Shown here in pieces: positions 3,714 to 25,021 of a stretch of 64,000 nucleotides of DNA. The notes beneath the pieces were generated by a model. That model saw nothing but the letters and a program-made list of their open reading frames with translations. It made no database searches and had not been told where the DNA came from. Each line of letters begins with the position of its first letter. Within the stretch, counting starts at the first letter, position 1. This DNA comes from Planobispora longispora (lineage in GTDB: Bacteria > Actinomycetota > Actinomycetes > Streptosporangiales > Streptosporangiaceae): positions 434,001 through 498,000 of the forward strand of contig NZ_BOOH01000019.1 in assembly GCF_016863135.1 (NCBI RefSeq), written 5' to 3'. A program made the translations under genes and the position numbers.

Positions 3714-4337
3714 ATGGAGCCTCTGAGCATCGGCGGAGCCTGGCAGTACACCCCCCGCGTCCACGCCGACTCCCGCGGCGCCTTCCTGGAGGCGTTCCGC
3801 GCCGCCGACCTGCGGCGGGCCGCCGGGCACCGGTTCGACCTCGCGCAGATCAACTGCTCGGTGTCGAAGCGCGGCGTGCTGCGCGGCGTGCACTTCGCGG
3901 ACGTGCCGCCCGGTCAGGCCAAGTACGTCATGTGCGTCTCCGGCGCGATCCTCGACGTGGTCGTGGACCTCCGGACCGGGTCGCCGACCTTCGGCCGGTG
4001 GGAGGCCGTGCGCCTGGACGACACCGACCGCCGGGCCGTCTACCTCGCCGAGGGGCTCGGCCACGCGTTCCTCGCGCTGAGCGACCAGGCGGCCGTCATG
4101 TACGCGTGCTCGCAGCCGTACGCGCCGGGGCGCGAACACGGGATCCACCCGCTCGACCCGGACCTCGGCATCGATTGGCCGCTGGAGGGCGAGCCGCTGC
4201 TGTCGGACAAGGACGCCGCCGCCCCCAGCCTGGCGGAGGCGCTGGCGGTCGGGCTGCTCCCGGACTACGCCGCCTGCCTGGACTACGAGCGGACGCATCA
4301 CGGGTCACCGTCGATCAGCGACGGCCAGGCCGTCTGA
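3714..4337 (+). CDS. rmlC: dTDP-4-dehydrorhamnose 3,5-epimerase
   Basis: Cupin-fold epimerase of dTDP-rhamnose biosynthesis, converting dTDP-4-keto-6-deoxyglucose to dTDP-4-keto-rhamnose. Family landmarks are SRGAFLEAF near residue 20, KRGVLRGVHFAD with the catalytic His around residue 60, AILDVVVDLR, and the aromatic-rich VYLAEGLGHAFLAL. Length (207 residues from ATG 3714) is normal; ATG 3702 would add four residues. It is on the opposite strand from rmlD/B/A, and its last 40 bp overlap the 3' end of rmlD, a convergent tail-to-tail arrangement. Its promoter lies in the gap divergent from the dioxygenase gene. Confidence 0.92.
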   Translation: MEPLSIGGAWQYTPRVHADSRGAFLEAFRAADLRRAAGHRFDLAQINCSVSKRGVLRGVHFADVPPGQAKYVMCVSGAILDVVVDLRTGSPTFGRWEAVRLDDTDRRAVYLAEGLGHAFLALSDQAAVMYACSQPYAPGREHGIHPLDPDLGIDWPLEGEPLLSDKDAAAPSLAEALAVGLLPDYAACLDYERTHHGSPSISDGQAV

Positions 4338-5140
4338 AGCGCCTGCCGCCAGTCCCGCATGGCGGGCCGGCCGTGGTGCCCGAGCACGCTGTAGGCCGGG
4401 CGCCGGGCCGGGCGCGGGAACGCGGCGGTCGTGACCGGCCGGACGCGCTCCGGGTCGGCGCCCAGCAGGGTGAAGATCTCGCGGGCGAAGCCGTACCAGG
4501 TCGTCCGGCCGGAGTTGGTGGCGTGGTAGATCCCGCCGGGGACGTCGGCGTGGACCAGCCGGACCAGCTCGGCCGCCAGGTCGGCGGCCCAGGTCGGCTG
4601 CCCGTGCTGGTCGTCCACCACGGAGACGGTCTCCCGCTCGGCCTCCAGCCGGATCATGGTCCGCACGAAGTTCGCCCCGCGGGCGCCGTACAGCCAGGCG
4701 GTGCGCACCACGATGTGGCCGTGCTCCAGCGCCGCGCGCTCGCCGGCCAGCTTGCTCCTGCCGTAGGCGCCGACCGGGCCGGTCGGGTCGTCCTCGCGGT
4801 AGGGCCGCGAGGAGGCGCCGTCGAAGACGTAGTCGGTGGAGATCTGCACCAGCCGGGCGTCCGCCTCCGCGCACGCCTCCGCCAGGGCCCGCACGGCGTG
4901 GCCGTTGACCGCGAGCGCCTCGGCCTCGTGCGCCTCCGCGTCGTCCACGGCCGTCCACGCCGCGCAGTTGACCACCGCGTCGGGCTTGTGCAGCCGTACG
5001 GCCTCGGCCACCGCCCGCGGGTCCCGCACGTCGAGCTCGGCGCGGCCCAGCGCTGCGACCTGCTCCCCCTCCCGGTGCAGGACGCCGACGAGGTCGGAGC
5101 CGAGCATGCCCCGGGCCCCGGTGACCAGCCATCGCGTCAT
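4298..5140 (-). CDS. rmlD: dTDP-4-dehydrorhamnose reductase
   Basis: Last step of dTDP-L-rhamnose synthesis: NAD(P)H reduction of dTDP-4-keto-rhamnose. The 280-residue SDR protein begins MTRWLVTGARGMLGSDL with the GxxGxxG Rossmann motif, has STDYVFDG near residue 100, and the catalytic YGRSK pair near residue 127. The start ATG overlaps the rmlB stop by 4 bp (ATGA), so the order on this strand is rmlA-rmlB-rmlD. The 3' end is antisense to the rmlC 3' end. Confidence 0.95.
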   Translation of the reverse strand: MTRWLVTGARGMLGSDLVGVLHREGEQVAALGRAELDVRDPRAVAEAVRLHKPDAVVNCAAWTAVDDAEAHEAEALAVNGHAVRALAEACAEADARLVQISTDYVFDGASSRPYREDDPTGPVGAYGRSKLAGERAALEHGHIVVRTAWLYGARGANFVRTMIRLEAERETVSVVDDQHGQPTWAADLAAELVRLVHADVPGGIYHATNSGRTTWYGFAREIFTLLGADPERVRPVTTAAFPRPARRPAYSVLGHHGRPAMRDWRQALQTAWPSLIDGDP

Positions 5141-6096
5141 ATGAGCGCCTTCCACCAGTCGGGGTTGTCGGTGTACCAGCGGATGGTCTCCCGCAGCCCC
5201 GTCTCGAAGTCGATCTTCGGGGCGTATCCCATCCCGCGCAGCTTGGTGTCGTCCAGGGAGTAGCGGCGGTCGTGCCCCTTGCGGTCCTCGACGCGCTCGA
5301 CCATGTCCCAGTCGGCCCCGCAGAGCTCCAGGATCCACTCGGTGAGCCGGAGGTTGGTCATCTCCGCCGTGCCGGCGATGTGGTAGATCTCGCCGGGCTC
5401 GCCCTCCTCGGCCACCAGCCGGATTCCCGCGCAGTGGTCCTCGACGTGGATCCAGTCGCGGACGTTGCCGCCGTCGCCGTAGAGCGGCACCTTCCGGCCC
5501 CGCAGGAGATTGGTGATGAACAGCGGGATCACCTTCTCCGGATACTGGCGGGGGCCGTAGTTGTTGCCGCAGCGCGTGATGGAGACCGGCAGGCCGTGGG
5601 TGATCGCGTACGCGCGGGCGATCATGTCCCCGCCCGCCTTGGAGGCCGAGTACGGCGAGCGCGGCCGCAGCGGCGCGAACTCGTTCCACGAACCGGACTC
5701 GATGGACCCGTAGACCTCGTCGGTGGAGACCTGCACCACGCGCGGGGTCCCGGCCTCCAGGCACGCCTGCATGAGCGCCTGCACGCCCAGGACGTTGGAC
5801 CGCACGAACTCGGCCGCGCCGTCGATCGACCGGTCCACGTGGGACTCGGCCGCGAAGTTGACGACGACGTCGTGGCCGGGGACCACCTCGGCGAGCAGCC
5901 CGGGGTCGCAGACGTCGCCGCGCACGAACGTGTGGGCGACCCCCTCCAGATTCGCCGGGTTGCCCGCGTAGGTGAGCTTGTCGAGGACCGTCACGGAGAT
6001 CCCGTCCGCCGCGAGCATGCGGACGTAGGCGGAGCCGATGAACCCGGCGCCGCCGGTGACCAGGACGCGCGAGGGCTCCCGGGTGGACGCTGTCAT
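5137..6096 (-). CDS. rmlB: dTDP-glucose 4,6-dehydratase
   Basis: NAD+-dependent dehydratase producing dTDP-4-keto-6-deoxyglucose. The 319-residue extended SDR has the VTGGAGFIGS nucleotide motif near residue 14, STDEVYG with the catalytic Asp-Glu pair, and the YSASK active-site Tyr-Lys. The segment NNYGPRQYPEKVIPLFI is characteristic of RmlB. ATG 6096 overlaps the rmlA stop by 4 bp, and the gene overlaps rmlD by 4 bp at its end. Coupling of the three genes implies balanced production of the pathway enzymes. Confidence 0.96.
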   Translation of the reverse strand: MTASTREPSRVLVTGGAGFIGSAYVRMLAADGISVTVLDKLTYAGNPANLEGVAHTFVRGDVCDPGLLAEVVPGHDVVVNFAAESHVDRSIDGAAEFVRSNVLGVQALMQACLEAGTPRVVQVSTDEVYGSIESGSWNEFAPLRPRSPYSASKAGGDMIARAYAITHGLPVSITRCGNNYGPRQYPEKVIPLFITNLLRGRKVPLYGDGGNVRDWIHVEDHCAGIRLVAEEGEPGEIYHIAGTAEMTNLRLTEWILELCGADWDMVERVEDRKGHDRRYSLDDTKLRGMGYAPKIDFETGLRETIRWYTDNPDWWKALI

Positions 6097-19065: not shown

Positions 19066-21918
19066 ATGTCATCTCCACGCCGCGCCACGACGGCCCTGGC
19101 GCTCGCCGCCCTGCTCGGCAGCGCCGCCGTCGTCACCGCGCCATCGGCATCCGCGCGCATCACGACGTCAGCAGCCCCTGACGGAACCACCTCGGCCAAG
19201 GCCGCGCCGTCCTGCTGGGCGATCAAGCAGGCCCACCCGAGCAGCGCCGACGGCGTCTACTGGCTGCAGACGCCCAAGCTCGTCGCCCCGCAGCAGTTCT
19301 ACTGCGACATGACGACCGACGGCGGCGGCTGGGTGCTCATCGGCCGGGGCCGCGAGGGCTGGACGTTCCACCACCCCGGCCAGCGCACCGCCGGCAACGT
19401 CCGCAACACCCCCACCGGAACCGCCGCGTTCGCGCCCGCCGCCCTCCCCGGCGACACCGTCAACGCGCTGCTGAACGGCGGCCGGGTGGACGCCCTCGCC
19501 GACGGCGTGCGACTGCGCCGCGCCGCCAACGCGACCGGCACCTCCTGGCAGGAGATGCGCTGGAAGTTCAAGGACCGCGACGACTGGTCCTGGACCTTCG
19601 ACGCCGGCCCCACCTTCTCCCACCCCCTCTCCTCCGTGATCGTGGACGGCACCGCCTACGCCGGCGGCAACACCCGCGACTGGAACAACAACAGCGGGTC
19701 GCGCCGCGTCTTCACCTACGAGTGGCAGAGCCACGGCTGGCAGAAGGGCTTCAGCTACGGAGCCGGCCAGAGCGGCGGCTCCACCGGCTCCACCAGCTAC
19801 CTGTGGCAGAACGGCACCGAGGGCAGCCCGATCCCGTTCACCCAGGTCTTCATCCGCCCGAAGATCACCAGCGTCTCGTACGGCGACATCCCCGACGCCG
19901 GCACCCCCGCCTCCACGGTGACCCCGCTGGTCTCCAACCAGACCACCCCCCTGCCCTGGGGCGTGACCGGCGTGATGGGCACCGGCACCGGCGAGGAGTT
20001 CCTCGAGGTCCAGGCCCTCAGCGTGCTGAACGGCACCCTCTACGTGGGCGGCAGGTTCCGGTACGTCCAGCAGGGCGCCTCCGGCACGAAGACCGAGCAG
20101 CCGTACCTGGCCGCCTTCGACGCCAAGAGCGGCGAGTGGCGCTCCACGTTCCTGCCCAAGCTCGACGGCCAGGTGTGGGACATCGAGCCGCTGGGCAACA
20201 AGATCATCATCGCGGGCGAGTTCACGAACGTCGACGGTGAGCCGAACACCGCCGGCATGGCCGCCCTCGACCCCGCGACCGGCAAGGTCGTCCCCGGCTG
20301 GCGGACCACGTTCACCCGCGCGAGCGGCCTCCCCGTCAAGGTCAAGGCCCTCGACACGCAGGACGGCTGGCTGTACGTCGGCGGCGCCTTCAACCACGTC
20401 AGCGGCGGCAACCCGCTCTCCGCCAAGGTCTGGTCCGTCATGGGAGCCCGCGTGCGGGTGACCGACGGACGTCCCGACGAGACCTGGACCCCCCGCTTCG
20501 ACCTGCCCGTGGTCGACGTCGACGCCAGCGAGAAGGGCGACCGCGTCTACTTCGGCGGCTTCTTCGAGAACGTCAACGACAAGCCCGCCAACAGCTTCGC
20601 CGTGCTCACCACCGCCGCCCCGGCCGCGCTGGTCCCCGGCCTGGGCGAGTGGAAGCCGAGCACCCCCACCGCCAACCGCGACTACCGCCAGTCGGTCGCC
20701 GAGTACGGCAACGGCGTCTGGATGGGCGGCTCCCAGCACGACTTCCAGCTCTACACCCGCGACGACCTGACCAAGGTCGCCGGCCACATCACCAAGAAGG
20801 GCGGCGACATCCAGGCGTCCGTCATCAAGGACGGCATCATCTACGGCTCCTGCCACTGCCCGGAGTTCGTCTACAACGGCGCCTCCAGCTGGGAGAGCCC
20901 GACCGGCTGGTCGAACGTGCACCAGATCGTCTGGATCGGCGCCTGGGACGCCAAGACCGGCAAGTACCTGCCGAACTTCGCCCCGTCGATCGACTCGCGC
21001 CGCGGTGACGGCCCCTGGGCCATGACCACCGACGACAACGGCTGCCTGTGGTTCGGCGGCGACATGAACCGCGGCTCCTGGAACAGCGCCACCTCCTCCT
21101 ACCAGTGGCTGGGCGGCTTCGGCCGGCTGTGCTCCACGGACTCCAAGGCCCCGTCCGCCCCGTCCGGCCTGCGCCTGGCCGGGACCGCCGGCGGCAACCA
21201 GCTCGCCTGGTCCGCCGCGTCCGACAACTCCGGCTCGGTCAAGTACGAGGTGCTGCGCGACGACCGGGTGATCGCCACCACGACCACCGCGTCCTACACA
21301 GACACGACCGCCTCGGGCGCCGCCAAGTACTGGGTCCGGGCCGTGGACGACGCCGGCAACCGCTCGGCGAGCACCGCCGCGCTCCCCGTGGACGGCCCCG
21401 TCAACACCGCGAACCTGCTGGCCAAGGGCGCGACCTGGAAGTGGCGCTACGACGGGACGAACCCGGGCGCGACCTGGACCGCCCCGGCCTTCGACGACTC
21501 CGCCTGGTCCGCCGGCCCCGGCGAGCTCGGCTACGGCGACGGCGACGAGGCGACCCTGCTGCCCGCGGGCACCACGCCCCGGCACGTGACCGCCTACTTC
21601 CGCACCACGCTGAAGGTCACCGACCCGGCCGCCTACAAGAACCTGCTGATCGACCTCGTCCGCGACGACGGCGCCGTGGTCTACATCAACGGGACCGAGG
21701 TCGGCCGGGCCAACCTCCCCGAGGGCGCGATCACCCCGGACACGACCGCCCTGGTCGGCTACTCCACCAACGCCGAGGAGCGGACCCCCGTCCGCTTCAC
21801 CGTCCCCGCCGACGTCCTGGTCGCCGGGACCAACACGATCGCGGTGGAGATGCACCAGTACGACAAGTGGAGCGCCGACCTCAGCTTCGCGCTGACCGTC
21901 GACGCGACCGTGAAGTAA
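19066..21918 (+). CDS. Large secreted protein: fibrinogen-like domain, propeller-like repeats, FN3-like and C-terminal jelly-roll-like domains
   Basis: A 950-residue exported protein of unknown role. Residues 1-32 form a signal peptide ending PSASA. Residues about 48-270 look like a bacterial fibrinogen-related/COLF1 domain (CWAIKQAHP, QQFYCDMTTDGGGWVLIGR). About 300-680 carry repeats such as LYVGGRFRYVQQ, IIIAGEFTNVDG, LYVGGAFNHVSG and VYFGGFFENVND, a propeller-like array. About 695-775 resemble an FN3 module, and the last 170 residues (KWRYDGTNPGATW onward) a sugar-binding jelly-roll. All these domains bind ligands, so a surface lectin or scaffold for the sulfated glycan is plausible. A strong hairpin follows; no cell-wall anchor is visible. 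Confidence 0.72.
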   Translation: MSSPRRATTALALAALLGSAAVVTAPSASARITTSAAPDGTTSAKAAPSCWAIKQAHPSSADGVYWLQTPKLVAPQQFYCDMTTDGGGWVLIGRGREGWTFHHPGQRTAGNVRNTPTGTAAFAPAALPGDTVNALLNGGRVDALADGVRLRRAANATGTSWQEMRWKFKDRDDWSWTFDAGPTFSHPLSSVIVDGTAYAGGNTRDWNNNSGSRRVFTYEWQSHGWQKGFSYGAGQSGGSTGSTSYLWQNGTEGSPIPFTQVFIRPKITSVSYGDIPDAGTPASTVTPLVSNQTTPLPWGVTGVMGTGTGEEFLEVQALSVLNGTLYVGGRFRYVQQGASGTKTEQPYLAAFDAKSGEWRSTFLPKLDGQVWDIEPLGNKIIIAGEFTNVDGEPNTAGMAALDPATGKVVPGWRTTFTRASGLPVKVKALDTQDGWLYVGGAFNHVSGGNPLSAKVWSVMGARVRVTDGRPDETWTPRFDLPVVDVDASEKGDRVYFGGFFENVNDKPANSFAVLTTAAPAALVPGLGEWKPSTPTANRDYRQSVAEYGNGVWMGGSQHDFQLYTRDDLTKVAGHITKKGGDIQASVIKDGIIYGSCHCPEFVYNGASSWESPTGWSNVHQIVWIGAWDAKTGKYLPNFAPSIDSRRGDGPWAMTTDDNGCLWFGGDMNRGSWNSATSSYQWLGGFGRLCSTDSKAPSAPSGLRLAGTAGGNQLAWSAASDNSGSVKYEVLRDDRVIATTTTASYTDTTASGAAKYWVRAVDDAGNRSASTAALPVDGPVNTANLLAKGATWKWRYDGTNPGATWTAPAFDDSAWSAGPGELGYGDGDEATLLPAGTTPRHVTAYFRTTLKVTDPAAYKNLLIDLVRDDGAVVYINGTEVGRANLPEGAITPDTTALVGYSTNAEERTPVRFTVPADVLVAGTNTIAVEMHQYDKWSADLSFALTVDATVK

Positions 21919-21930
21919 CCGACTCCCCCA

Positions 21931-21968
21931 CGAAGACGCCCGGCCGGGTCCCCGGCCGGGCGTCTTCG
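21931..21968. terminator. Perfect 18-bp terminator hairpin
   Basis: The arms at 21931-21948 and 21951-21968 are exact reverse complements over 18 bp with only two bases between them (an effective 4-6 nt loop). It begins 12 bp after the stop of the secreted 950-residue protein. No T-tract follows. It also marks the border between the glycan genes and the repeat island. Confidence 0.75.
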
Positions 21969-21981
21969 CGTATGGCGGTTG

Positions 21982-22039
21982 TGCCGGTACGGCGGGTTGG
22001 TGCCGGTACGGCGGGTTGGCCGGTGCCGGTACGGCACGC
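21982..22039. repeat. Short tandem repeats of a 19-bp unit
   Basis: Two exact 19-bp copies (unit TGCCGGTACGGCGGGTTGG) at 21982-22000 and 22001-22019, with a third partial copy sharing TGCCGGTACGGC from 22024. The core CCGGTACGGC recurs at 22061. This array sits directly against the outer edge of the long inverted repeat and is absent beyond the outer edge of the other copy. Confidence 0.7.
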
Positions 22040-22497
22040 ACCCGGGCCGAAAGCCCGGCGCCGGTACGGCGAGAGGTGGCGCGGTGGTGTCCGGCGCCGC
22101 TGTACGGCGTGTCACCCGGGCTTCGGGGAGGCGGGTCCGGGGTGGTCGGGGCGGGTCCGGGGTGGGGTCTGCTGTTGTGGGTCATGGTCGCGCTGTGCGG
22201 GCGGATGTTCCAGCCGGCCGTCGGGGTTCTGTCTGGTTGTTCAGGCCTCCGGCCTGGCGGGCGCGCGGGGTTGCCGGCCCGTTTCTACGCCGGCTGGAAC
22301 ATCCGCCCGCGCCGCACTCCTCATGCTTCGCCGTAGCGGGTGCGGGCCGTATGGATGCGGCCCTGTCCCGGACGACCGTGGTCCTCGCCGTCGCTGAAGC
22401 GCACACGCGGCGCCGTTCAGGGCTGGTCGCCGTTGCCTGCGGCCATCCTGACGGGAAGGAGCTCAGGGCTGCTCGCCGTAGCGACCCGCGTAATGAT
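22020..22497. repeat. Long inverted repeat, copy A
   Basis: About 475 bp that recur in reverse orientation at 23525-23998; by eye roughly nine bases in ten agree, with long identical runs (for example 22131-22260 against 23761-23888) and a few indels. Inside it a 22-bp arm at 22197-22218 has its exact reverse complement at 22289-22310, leaving a 70-nt loop that includes CAGGCC/GGCCTG. Short frames run through both copies, but their predicted products diverge in frame after indels, so the conservation is of nucleotides rather than protein. Confidence 0.88.
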
Positions 22498-22556
22498 CGA
22501 AACCTGTGGATCACCGGACGGGGTGTACTTTTCCGGATCACCCGATGAAGGTTTCG
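22498..22556. repeat. Small inverted repeat at the inner edge of copy A
   Basis: Arms CGAAACCT (22498-22505) and AGGTTTCG (22549-22556) with an inner CCGGA/TCCGG pair. It lies about 45 bp upstream of the transposase remnant, so it may be an insertion-sequence end or a regulatory hairpin. No matching copy was seen downstream of the remnant. Confidence 0.4.
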
Positions 22557-22598
22557 AGATAAGGCCGACGTTGCCACGTCGGTCAGGAAGGCACGCCC

Positions 22599-22910
22599 GT
22601 GCCGCTTACCGTAGTTCCTGATCTCCCTGCCGACGACAGTCATCCGACAATCGACTCGGCCGCGCTGATCGATCAGATCGTCCGTGAGGGCGCCCGTCGC
22701 ATGCCGGCCGCTGCCCTGCCGGTCGAGGTGGGCGCCTACCTCGCCGCTTTTGCCGATGGGCGTGACGCAGGCGGTCGCCGCCTGGTGGTGCGCAACGGCT
22801 CCCACGCCCTGTGCGAGATCCTGACCGCGGCCGGCGTGATCGAGGTCCACGCGCCTCGGGTCAACGACGAACGCGCCGATCCAGTCACCGGCGAGCGTCA
22901 GCGATCCTCC
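22599..22910 (+). pseudogene. Truncated IS256-family transposase (5' fragment)
   Basis: From GTG 22599, preceded by GGAAGG, about 103 codons match the N-terminal part of actinobacterial IS256/mutator transposases: VPDLPADDSHPTIDSAAL, IVREGARRMPAAAL, LVVRNGSHALCEILTAAG and the APRVND segment. Homology ends after DPVTGERQR at about 22905; the remaining open frame to 23108 is unlike the family. The usual length is near 400 residues, so the DDE catalytic region is gone. A short stretch GCGATCCTCC in another frame could be leftover coding sequence after a small deletion. The element is dead by itself and has an unrelated gene joined to its broken end. Confidence 0.8.
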
Positions 22911-23005
22911 GATTGCGCCCGATCCTGGGACGGGCAAGGTGCCGAGCTGGGAGCCCCGTCCCGGGCGCGTCTCCACGGGCGGGGCACCGTCCCGGCGTCT
23001 GATGG

Positions 23006-23425
23006 TCAGCTGTCGAGCACCTCGGTGTTCTGGCAGGCGACCAAGCGCCAGCGGCCGTCCTCCTTGGACATGACGTACAGCGGGCTCCCCACGCTCTCGA
23101 CCGACTGATCGCTGAGCGTCGTGTACCGCTGACGCACCTTGACGGCGGCGACATCGGAACGGATGAACAGCACGTGTTCGACCTCATAGGTGGCCGTCGA
23201 GTCCTTCATCGCACCAGGAAGCACTCTGTGGGTGAACGCCGAGATCTCATCTCGGCCGAAGAGGCGCTTGCCGTGGCCCGTGGTCCAGATCGCATCGGAC
23301 CGGAACAGGCCGACGAACTCGTCGGGGAGCTCATTCTGCTGGGAGTGCTCAACTGAAGCGACCACCTGCTTGATGGCCTCGATCTCAGCTTCGCGCGTCT
23401 GCTCATCGATCAGTGTCGTATTCAT
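23006..23425 (-). CDS. SgcJ/EcaC-type SnoaL-like (NTF2-fold) protein
   Basis: A 139-residue protein of the SnoaL-like superfamily, SgcJ/EcaC subgroup: an N-terminal helix (EAEIEAIKQVVASVEHSQQNE), then FVGLFRSDAIWTTGHGKRLFGRDEI, and the beta-strands SDVAAVKVRQRYTTL and WRLVACQNTEVLDS. Such proteins form dimers with a hydrophobic pocket; the reaction is unknown here. ATG 23425 is preferred over an upstream start because the promoter at 23432-23462 would begin transcription at or next to this ATG, with no ribosome site needed. The gene sits alone between the long inverted repeats, next to the transposase remnant, and has no regulator beside it. Confidence 0.78.
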   Translation of the reverse strand: MNTTLIDEQTREAEIEAIKQVVASVEHSQQNELPDEFVGLFRSDAIWTTGHGKRLFGRDEISAFTHRVLPGAMKDSTATYEVEHVLFIRSDVAAVKVRQRYTTLSDQSVESVGSPLYVMSKEDGRWRLVACQNTEVLDS

Positions 23426-23431
23426 GAGGCC

Positions 23432-23462
23432 AGCCTGATACCTCAAGCTTCCTTGAGGTCAA
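23432..23462 (-). promoter_or_regulatory. MerR/SoxR-type promoter with perfect dyad
   Basis: On the minus strand a -35 TTGACC (23462-23457) is followed by a 19-bp spacer and CAGGCT (23437-23432). The spacer is mostly filled by the dyad ACCTCAAG (minus) / CTTGAGGT at 23440-23447 and 23452-23459, spaced by four bases. A long spacer holding a CCTCAAG-N4-CTTGAGG palindrome is the known pattern for MerR-family activators, SoxR in particular. The expected start is near 23425, the A of the ATG, suggesting a leaderless transcript. An alternative TATCAG with a 16-bp spacer is possible. Confidence 0.72.
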
Positions 23463-23524
23463 GCCCGATGAGAGATGCGGCTGGACCATCAGTGTCCTGG
23501 AACGTCCGTGTGCGCTTCTCCATT

Positions 23525-23998
23525 CGGCGCAACTACGGCGAGCAGCCCTGAGCTCCTTCCCGCGGGCATGGCCGCAGGCAACGGCGACCAGCCCTGAACG
23601 GTCCTGAACGTACGCGTCAGCGACGGCGAGGACCACGGTCGTCCGGGGCGGGACCGCATCCATACGGCCCGCACCCCCTACGGCGGGCAACCAGGAGCGC
23701 GGCGCGGGCGGATGTTCCAGCCGGCGTAAAAACCGGCCAGGACCCCACGCGCCCGCCAGGCCGGAGGCCTGAACAACCAGACAGAACCCCGACGGCCGGC
23801 TGGAACATCCGCCCGCACAGCGCGACCATGACCCACAACAGCAGACCCCACCCCGGACCCGCCCCGACCACCCCGGACCCGCCTCCCCGAAACCCGGGTG
23901 ACACGCCGTACAGCGGCGCCGGACACCACCGCACCACCTCCCGCCGTACCGGCGCCGGGCCTTCAGCCCGGGTGCGTGCCGTACCGGCACCGGTGCCG
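23525..23998. repeat. Long inverted repeat, copy B
   Basis: Reverse-complement partner of 22020-22497. It keeps the same internal hairpin: 22-bp arms at 23704-23725 and 23795-23816, identical to those of copy A. Differences include TTTTTACGCC against TTTCTACGCC in the loop flank and several small indels near the inner end. Its outer end stops about 9 bp before the stop codon of the Alg13-like gene, so it occupies almost the whole 3' flank of that operon and could also serve as its terminator. Confidence 0.88.
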
Positions 23999-24006
23999 GG
24001 TGGTTC

Positions 24007-24570
24007 TCAGCCGCGCCTGAGGCGGTCCATCCCGCGGGGGCGGGAGACCAGGTCGCCGACGAGTTTGCCGAACAGGAGGGTCGTCGCCACCGGGCTGGTG
24101 CCGCTGTCCGGGACCACGCGGTACCGGGAGGGGTCGGCGAGCGCGGTGTCGAGGTGGGCGGTGAGTTCCTCGGCCGAGCCGGCCAGGGCGATACGGCCGC
24201 TGGCCGCCATGACCTGGGTGAAGCGGATCTGGTGGTCGTCGACGTGCTCGCCCAGGCGGGAGGTGCGGGGCACCACGATGGGCAGCCGGCCGGCCGACCT
24301 GCTCTCCGTGATCCCGCCGGGGCCGCCCTGGCAGACGACGGCGGCGGCCTGCTCCATCAGGCTCCGCAGCTCGCCGTGGGGCAGCATGGTGTGGCACTCC
24401 GCGCCCCGCACGGCGTGGGAGGTGCCGTTCTGCACCACGCAGCGGACCGTGTCGCCCCTGCTCGCCAGCCAGCGCTCGATCCAGTCGCTGAGCCGGTTGA
24501 AGGGGTGGTGGTCGGTGCCGACCGTGACCAGCACCAGGGGACGGTCGTCCGTTCTCATCCGCTCGCTCAT
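24007..24570 (-). CDS. Alg13-like glycosyltransferase subunit (GT28 C-terminal domain)
   Basis: A 187-residue protein equal to the C-terminal, nucleotide-sugar-binding half of GT28/MurG-type enzymes, as in Alg13, PssE or EpsE-type subunits. Landmarks are LVLVTVGTDHHPFNRLSDW at the start and CQGGPGGITESRSAGRLPIVVPR near residue 80, the UDP-sugar-binding GGxG segment. It starts 1 bp after the Alg14-like gene, so the two subunits are made together. By analogy with Alg13/14 it would add a sugar, often GlcNAc or GlcA, to a lipid-linked acceptor. It is the last gene of the second glycan operon. Confidence 0.85.
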   Translation of the reverse strand: MSERMRTDDRPLVLVTVGTDHHPFNRLSDWIERWLASRGDTVRCVVQNGTSHAVRGAECHTMLPHGELRSLMEQAAAVVCQGGPGGITESRSAGRLPIVVPRTSRLGEHVDDHQIRFTQVMAASGRIALAGSAEELTAHLDTALADPSRYRVVPDSGTSPVATTLLFGKLVGDLVSRPRGMDRLRRG

Positions 24571-24571
24571 C

Positions 24572-25021
24572 TCACAGCACCTGTCCGACCACGACGCCCC
24601 GGGGGTAGACCTTCTGCTGCTCGGGCCACTGGAGCAGGAACAGGTCGGACAGCGGGTAGCAGAGCCGGCCGGTCAACGTGCCCGAGTCGATGCGGTCGTA
24701 GACCTCCAGGTACACCGTGCGGCACCGGAAGAGCTTGGCGAGCAGGAAGAACGGGAACGCCACGCCCGCGCCGGTGCTGACGACGACGTCCGGCCGGAAG
24801 CGGGGCAGCAGCCGGATCGCGAGGCCGAGGTTGCGGATCAGGTTGGGGATGTTGCGGGTCGTCGGGTGGTAGGCCCAGCTGACGTTCTCGCCGTCGAGCA
24901 GAGAGAGCGCGTCGGGCTGCTTGAAAGTCACCCAGTGCCGCTCGTGCCCGCCCCACCAGCCGCGGAGCCGGTGCAGCTGGGTCAGGTGCCCTCCGCCCGA
25001 GCACACGAAGAGCACTTTCAT
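24572..25021 (-). CDS. Alg14-like glycosyltransferase membrane subunit
   Basis: A 149-residue protein equal to the acceptor-binding half of a GT28 enzyme, like Alg14/PssD. It begins MKVLFVCSGGGHLTQLHRL, the typical SGGHxxQL glycine-rich start, and contains RPDVVVSTGAGVAFPFFLLAKLF near residue 82, a short membrane-associating helix. It overlaps the upstream APH-like gene by 4 bp and precedes the Alg13-like gene by 1 bp. It should recruit the catalytic partner to the membrane. Confidence 0.86.
   Translation of the reverse strand: MKVLFVCSGGGHLTQLHRLRGWWGGHERHWVTFKQPDALSLLDGENVSWAYHPTTRNIPNLIRNLGLAIRLLPRFRPDVVVSTGAGVAFPFFLLAKLFRCRTVYLEVYDRIDSGTLTGRLCYPLSDLFLLQWPEQQKVYPRGVVVGQVL

Follow-up and report, generated by a model that had tools for sequence, protein, structure and literature searches.

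Inverted repeats that enclose differing genes at shared chromosomal sites in Planobispora and its relatives

In a 64,000-nucleotide stretch of DNA from Planobispora longispora (hereafter, the window; contig C19:434001-498000 of G000, a 120-contig draft), two long inverted repeats, or arms, enclose a cargo. From sequence comparisons, we think it probable that this unit belongs to a family of exchangeable gene cassettes that are bounded by such repeats and maintained by recombination between the arms. A complete unit would consist of an arm, cargo, and an inverted arm, placed mostly between two convergent genes. Homologous recombination and gene conversion between arms may swap cargo between sites or with incoming DNA, recombination of the arms may flip cargo in place, and gene conversion or recombination may also keep the arms alike. 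Given the inverted layout, recombination within a pair would invert the cargo, not delete it. The exchanges and inversions described below are differences between species, and recombination is the process to which they appear to point.

The window unit and the anatomy of the arms

The left arm of the inverted pair occupies 22020-22481 on the forward strand and the right arm 23533-23993 on the reverse strand. As reverse complements, they are identical at 433 of 465 positions in a local alignment, which bears out the original prediction of an inverted pair about nine bases in ten identical, although the inner edges given there, 22497 and 23525, were set 16 and 8 bp too far inward. Complementarity is 98% over the outer 252 bp and 87% over the inner 214 bp, and the identity of the two mates within the conserved core is 0.90. 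The cargo begins with the 5′ end of a truncated IS256-type insertion sequence (22492-22910, forward strand), recognized by its 86% identity to contig C25 of G000, where a 424-aa open reading frame (ORF) matches Transposase_mut (PF00872, E 3.1e-60); no family was matched by the fragment's own ORF (22599-23108). A SnoaL/DUF4440-like gene follows on the minus strand (23006-23425, from the first ATG of ORF 23006-23446). A dead IS256-type fragment and a SnoaL-like gene are thus both present, as had been proposed. The flanking genes read towards the unit from either side: on the left, a gene of 950 aa (19066-21918, plus strand), and on the right, a gene with a Glyco_tran_28_C match (24007-24570, minus strand) and a relative in genome G001. 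The two neighboring genes in 24007-25021, with matches to Glyco_tran_28_C and Alg14, resemble a split Alg13/Alg14-type glycosyltransferase.

Arms form a dispersed repeat family, found in Planobispora, in Streptosporangium (both within the Streptosporangiaceae), and in two further genera. Copies besides the two window arms occur elsewhere in G000 with E-values down to 1.9e-102, contrary to the proviso that the repeat might occur nowhere else. At least 32 of 200 genomes of the family match the arm at E 0.001, a lower bound since only three candidates were scored per genome; 14 of these match at E 1e-20 or better, across four genera, and the remaining 18 matches are short and weak. A sequence profile built from 47 arms detected full-length arms in all six genomes on which it was run, which were picked for having arms, including 25 in the one-contig chromosome G123. 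An exact pattern searched genome-wide, which misses most copies, hit 16 stretches, all from Planobispora or Streptosporangium, and blastn searches of plasmid and phage collections left the arm unmatched. Other pairs in G000 include 588-bp arms that are 99% identical and enclose an inositol-monophosphatase gene (L031), arms on either side of an alpha/beta hydrolase gene, the left one only about 30 bp long (L032), and a pair where a contig starts (L036). Contigs C30 (at its end) and C31, C52, and C75 (at their starts) break within arms or the outer repeats of arms, so draft assemblies may hide further units.

Arms range from about 300 to 590 bp. A 300-bp core (22182-22481 in the left window arm, forward strand; 23533-23831 in the right) is common to 54 full-length copies, mates included, and its conservation ends at an inner GCCGTAG, beyond which the cargo is unrelated. 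All seven G000 alignments to the window arm that reach the inner end stop within 2 bp of 22482; the outer edge of homology varies among G000 copies, and the truncated copies L034 and L035 end before the inner edge. Of the fixed ends whose presence was to be checked, the inner one therefore exists in G000 and the outer one does not. Close to the inner end lie two direct repeats, one at 22417-22436 and the other (22463-22482) inside an inner-end motif at 22452-22482 (both forward strand) that faces the cargo here and in other plus/minus pairs. The outer arm contains a repeat of about 55 bp with two CGGTACGGC-like boxes (22055-22110), which also stands alone at 23 further places in G000; among 13 places inspected, four lie between convergent genes and three inside a called gene.

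The core also holds a conserved palindromic stem, in which bases covary, with halves at 22192-22218 and 22289-22315 in the left arm (forward strand) and at 23697-23725 and 23795-23823 in the right (reverse strand). Pairing is retained in 97.6% of 846 cells (shuffled mean 89.7), in a structure drawn from the same alignment. Doubly changed cells number 65 (shuffled mean 14; slid controls 1 to 6), the first of these controls being inflated by kinship. Nine pairs have double changes (shuffled mean 5.5; nine is reached in 3 of 500 shuffles), and there are 22 further pair types (shuffled mean 18.6; reached in 6 of 500). Departures from pairing comprise 12 G-U and 14 A-C cells, so neither strand looks favored, and these small counts suggest a palindrome acting at the level of DNA. 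The proposal of a duplicated regulatory RNA accordingly finds little in its favor: Rfam returned eight matches to E 5 across 21800-24200, and none of the eight reached its gathering score, as a structured RNA of a known family would.

Facing pairs, shared sites, and differing cargo

The arrangement seen in the window recurs. In the six arm-bearing genomes, 28 of 31 neighboring arms separated by less than 15 kb are in facing orientation with cargo between them, a count based on 96 profile-typed arms (one of them from the G000 similarity search). The remaining close pairs are one each of minus-plus, minus-minus, and plus-plus. At an expectation of one in four, 28 or more of 31 has a probability of 2.7e-14; when the limit is widened to 100 kb, 30 of 46 face each other. 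A facing orientation could also persist through deletion of direct pairs. Among 74 fetched arm-bearing loci, 37 have a plus-to-minus pair, 36 a single arm, and one an outward-facing pair; some single-arm loci were fetched incompletely (L147 and L188, for instance, are two ends of one unit) and others look decayed. With genes called by a simple codon-bias script and no gene finder, 28 of the 33 paired loci that have both flank genes called lie between convergent genes, as do 17 of 36 unpaired loci and 44 of 251 neighboring gene pairs outside units.

Excluding that of the window, 39 cargo stretches span 455 to 8867 bp, a set in which L072 and L073 have an assumed far edge, L173 faces outward, and L180 and L182 span a third arm. 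These last two loci, in G157, have three arms in a row (plus, minus, minus and plus, plus, minus), as though two units were nested or adjacent. L173 (3492-11235, in G123) is the sole close outward-facing pair, placed around a 7-kb stretch, and its arms are 73% identical. We rejected a 49-kb gap between two G123 arms as a unit, its first 20 kb looking by eye like ordinary chromosome; a 60-kb stretch in G157 lies between both flanks of the site termed C below and was counted as one.

Clustering of flank proteins shows that loci of different genera share gene neighborhoods. Site C is common to Planobispora, Streptosporangium, and genus g58; a response-regulator site (labeled by eye) is common to Planobispora, Streptosporangium, and g16; site P, beside PrfC and an oxidoreductase (labels by eye), is common to Planobispora and Streptosporangium; and further shared sites span two genera each. 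What lies between the shared flanks differs. At the window site, G000 has the SnoaL-like gene and G001 has an unrelated 301-aa gene with no family match (a GNAT label for it was dropped, as it had no family support) together with arm remnants; the right flank gene of the window had no match in P. siamensis (G002) or P. takensis (G003), both of the same genus as G000. Site A has the inositol monophosphatase gene in G000 versus a GNAT and PNPOx pair in P. siamensis and P. takensis, and site B a hydrolase in G000 versus a 212-aa protein without a Pfam match in P. takensis. Site C holds LysE in P. siamensis and P. takensis; an SCO4651-like lipoprotein (below the model cut-off) and an LDcluster4 gene in G060; a hydrolase, a sigma factor, and GDPD in G123; about 60 kb including GDPD in G157; and one arm in G000.

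Conversely, related cargo is found at different places. The window SnoaL gene shares 83% identity with one in L074 (G001) and 78-80% with arm-adjoining genes that P. siamensis and P. takensis have at site O (L083, L093), and the L074 and site O genes are 74-75% identical to each other; a single flank served to identify the L074 site, and likewise site O. L138 (the Streptosporangium genome G188) and L182 (G157) have in common a 2-kb segment at 76% identity, and L137 (G060) and L185 (G018) a HAD gene region at 78%, the flanks differing on the visible side in both comparisons. Cargo segments also occur in both orientations, in two between-species comparisons at site C. The LysE cargo is reversed between L086 and L098 (P. 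siamensis and P. takensis) while the flanks align colinearly into the arms, and the GDPD end runs in opposite directions in G123 and G157, between flanks that are colinear on both sides. At A, M, N, O, P, and Q, the other shared sites whose cargo is the same, no inversion was seen.

Empty sites, which it had been suggested to look for, exist at P and C. At site P, arms are present in P. siamensis, P. takensis, G008, G123, G157, and G169, and were not found in Streptosporangium G073 or in G102, G060, G096, and G018 (other genes lie there in G096 and G018); the convergent genes, without arms, are separated by 13 bp in G000 and by 4 bp in G001. Target duplication is not evident at the site P junctions, where diverged species are compared. 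Site C arms were not found in G001, G018, G096, or G102. Sites lacking arms imply that entire units have been gained or lost, a turnover for which recombination between arms does not account. At site P in G096 (L221), a pentapeptide-repeat-like gene (by eye) stands with no detected arm, and sequence similar to it starts near L088:5655 in P. siamensis, about 2 kb inside an arm. In L074, an identical 8-mer lies just outside both arms (1450-1443 and 46-39) and may be a target duplication or chance. A penicillin-binding-like gene (by eye) and the L074-side neighbor adjoin without arms in G000, G002, and G003; L074 was considered as an insertion between the two, and this was rejected as the 38 bp past the other arm do not match the neighbor. 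With only one L074 flank established, we claim no insertion there.

The genes carried are diverse. We compared 50 cargo proteins with Pfam: 49 of the 97 listed cargo ORFs (one with a later start) and the G001 gene. Hydrolases, acetyl- and methyltransferases, regulators, transporters, and dehydrogenases are represented among them, and about ten of the proteins lack a match. No transposase or integrase family was found by Pfam among these 50, which cover about half of the 97 listed ORFs, and no invertase among the 50 or six neighboring window proteins. The six ORFs that run across the two window arms matched no Pfam family at E 0.01. In L136, the ORF at 4780-5463 has a DNA_processg_A (DprA-like) match just below the cut-off, inside a stronger SLOG match, and that at 3924-4724 has a very weak IS6 transposase match (E 0.085, 12 bits against a cut-off of 200). 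In L144, L147, and L150, genes close to an arm look IS-like by eye, and the 60-kb site C stretch of G157 (L258, L259) has tyrosine-recombinase-like genes near one end as well as group II intron-like genes. Mean third-position G+C is 0.855 in 83 cargo genes versus 0.897 in 424 other nearby genes, a small difference.

Concerted evolution of the arms and competing explanations

Arms mostly resemble other arms of the same genome more than those of the same site. For 85 full arms from 14 genomes (incomplete arms were excluded, as was L141, which duplicates L185), the nearest arm is the mate in 36, at another site of the same genome in 40, at the same site of another genome in 5, and neither in 4. 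With mates left out, the nearest arm lies in the same genome for 67 of 85 (mean 9 and maximum 20 when labels are shuffled, a shuffle that ignores relatedness) and, for 7 of 85, at the corresponding site of another genome. Of 61 eligible arms, those having relatives of both kinds, 52 are closer to an arm at another site of the same genome than to the arm of the orthologous site, and nine go the opposite way. At five sites shared by P. siamensis and P. takensis, arms are 82-87% identical and aligned flanks 92-96%, and over 27 full-arm pairs mate identity runs from 0.73 to 1.00. Species-specific bursts of copying could also give this pattern.

Several other explanations bear weighing. Two readings that keep a mobile or site-specific process at the center strike us as possible but doubtful. 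The arms may be the long inverted ends of a non-autonomous transposon family akin to mobile insertion cassettes, mobilized in trans and preferring the gaps that separate convergent genes. Such a family would account for the presence or absence of arms and cargo together by genome at site P, for mates that can be nearly identical, for related SnoaL cargo at different places, and for the 8-bp direct repeat outside both L074 arms; a full IS256-type transposase gene exists elsewhere in G000, though nothing ties it to the arms. The edges are the reverse of a transposon end, fixed on the inside (7 of 7 within 2 bp) and variable on the outside in G000; none of the 50 cargo proteins belongs to a transposase family, sites are common to several genera, and target duplication is not evident at site P. 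Part of the prediction of a mobilized non-autonomous element is thus matched, by the arm-less sites and the related cargo at different places; the mobilizing enzyme, fixed outer end, and clear target duplication that would complete it were not found. With about equal reserve, the arms can be read as paired sites of a chromosomal cassette system in its own right, the integron's inverted counterpart, in which cargo would join at the sharp inner end, the palindrome would be recognized, docking sites would persist across genera, and an enzyme would move the cassettes. It is less probable still, though conceivable, that a dedicated recombinase uses the arms as paired sites, with the crossover placed at their sharp inner edge and the palindrome perhaps recognized as a folded strand; the sharp inner boundary beside the direct-repeat pair and the covarying stem (97.6% of cells paired, 65 doubly changed) agree with this, whereas no such enzyme was found among the 50 cargo proteins, the tyrosine-recombinase-like genes seen by eye being in one G157 stretch.

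That the arms are structural intergenic repeats, terminators or similar, which flank genes by happenstance seems very improbable to us: arms often lie just past stop codons between convergent genes, and 4 of 13 inspected places with the short outer-arm repeat (out of 23 further ones in G000) are between convergent genes as well, but neither 28 of 31 facing neighbors nor shared sites with differing cargo would be expected of independent repeats. We give almost no credence to an assembly artefact or a single local duplication. G000 is a draft in which contigs end within these repeats, yet the same layout is present in other species and in the one-contig chromosome G123, which contradicts this explanation. 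For our preferred reading, exchange and maintenance by recombination between arms, the sharp inner edge is a point against, as plain homologous recombination does not need such an edge. Among the guesses offered beforehand, that of a recombination-prone insertion platform appears to fit best, given shared sites, differing cargo, inverted cargo, and concerted arms.

Relation to known systems and significance

No known family that we considered is matched in full. Integron cassettes are small accessory-gene cassettes that are exchanged and have a foldable palindromic site. The arm family likewise has small accessory cargo that is probably exchanged and a foldable palindromic site, but with two long inverted arms per cargo at scattered sites and no integrase found among the 50 cargo proteins; in place of the single array and single orientation of an integron, arms are dispersed along the chromosome, and 28 of 31 close pairs are facing. 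Mobile insertion cassettes (MICs) hold passenger genes between short inverted IS ends and have no transposase. Arm units are similar in holding passenger genes between inverted ends, with no transposase among the cargo proteins compared, and differ in that arms are about 300-590 bp long, not short IS ends; where a MIC or non-autonomous IS would have a fixed outer end, outer starts vary in G000 and the inner end is constant to within 2 bp. In a composite transposon the arms would be transposase-coding insertion sequences, and the six ORFs of the window arms have no Pfam family.

Other systems share single aspects. The minimal mobile elements of Neisseria, whose exchange is thought to use flanking genes, likewise place different genes at one chromosomal site between conserved neighbors; here, in contrast, a shared repeat family bounds cargo at many sites. 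Pack-MULEs and Mutator-like elements have long inverted ends that carry host genes, a combination that the arm units resemble, and the window cargo includes a Mutator-type (IS256) fragment, but nothing found ties that fragment to the arms. REP/BIME and MITE-like sequences are, as arms are, dispersed intergenic palindromic repeats; none is known to bound conserved cargo-holding sites. Phase variation by invertases also leaves a segment in both orientations, which here is seen between species at site C. A search of the open-access literature yielded no account of such a system, a weak test.

The arm-bounded slots look like a means of storing and exchanging accessory genes that has not been described before. 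These soil actinobacteria may keep and trade such genes in chromosomal slots that are fixed in place and bounded by repeats, with no mobile element to be seen. If so, gene exchange would have an added route, one that would escape annotation pipelines, and the dispersed repeats would offer a testable case of evolution in concert.
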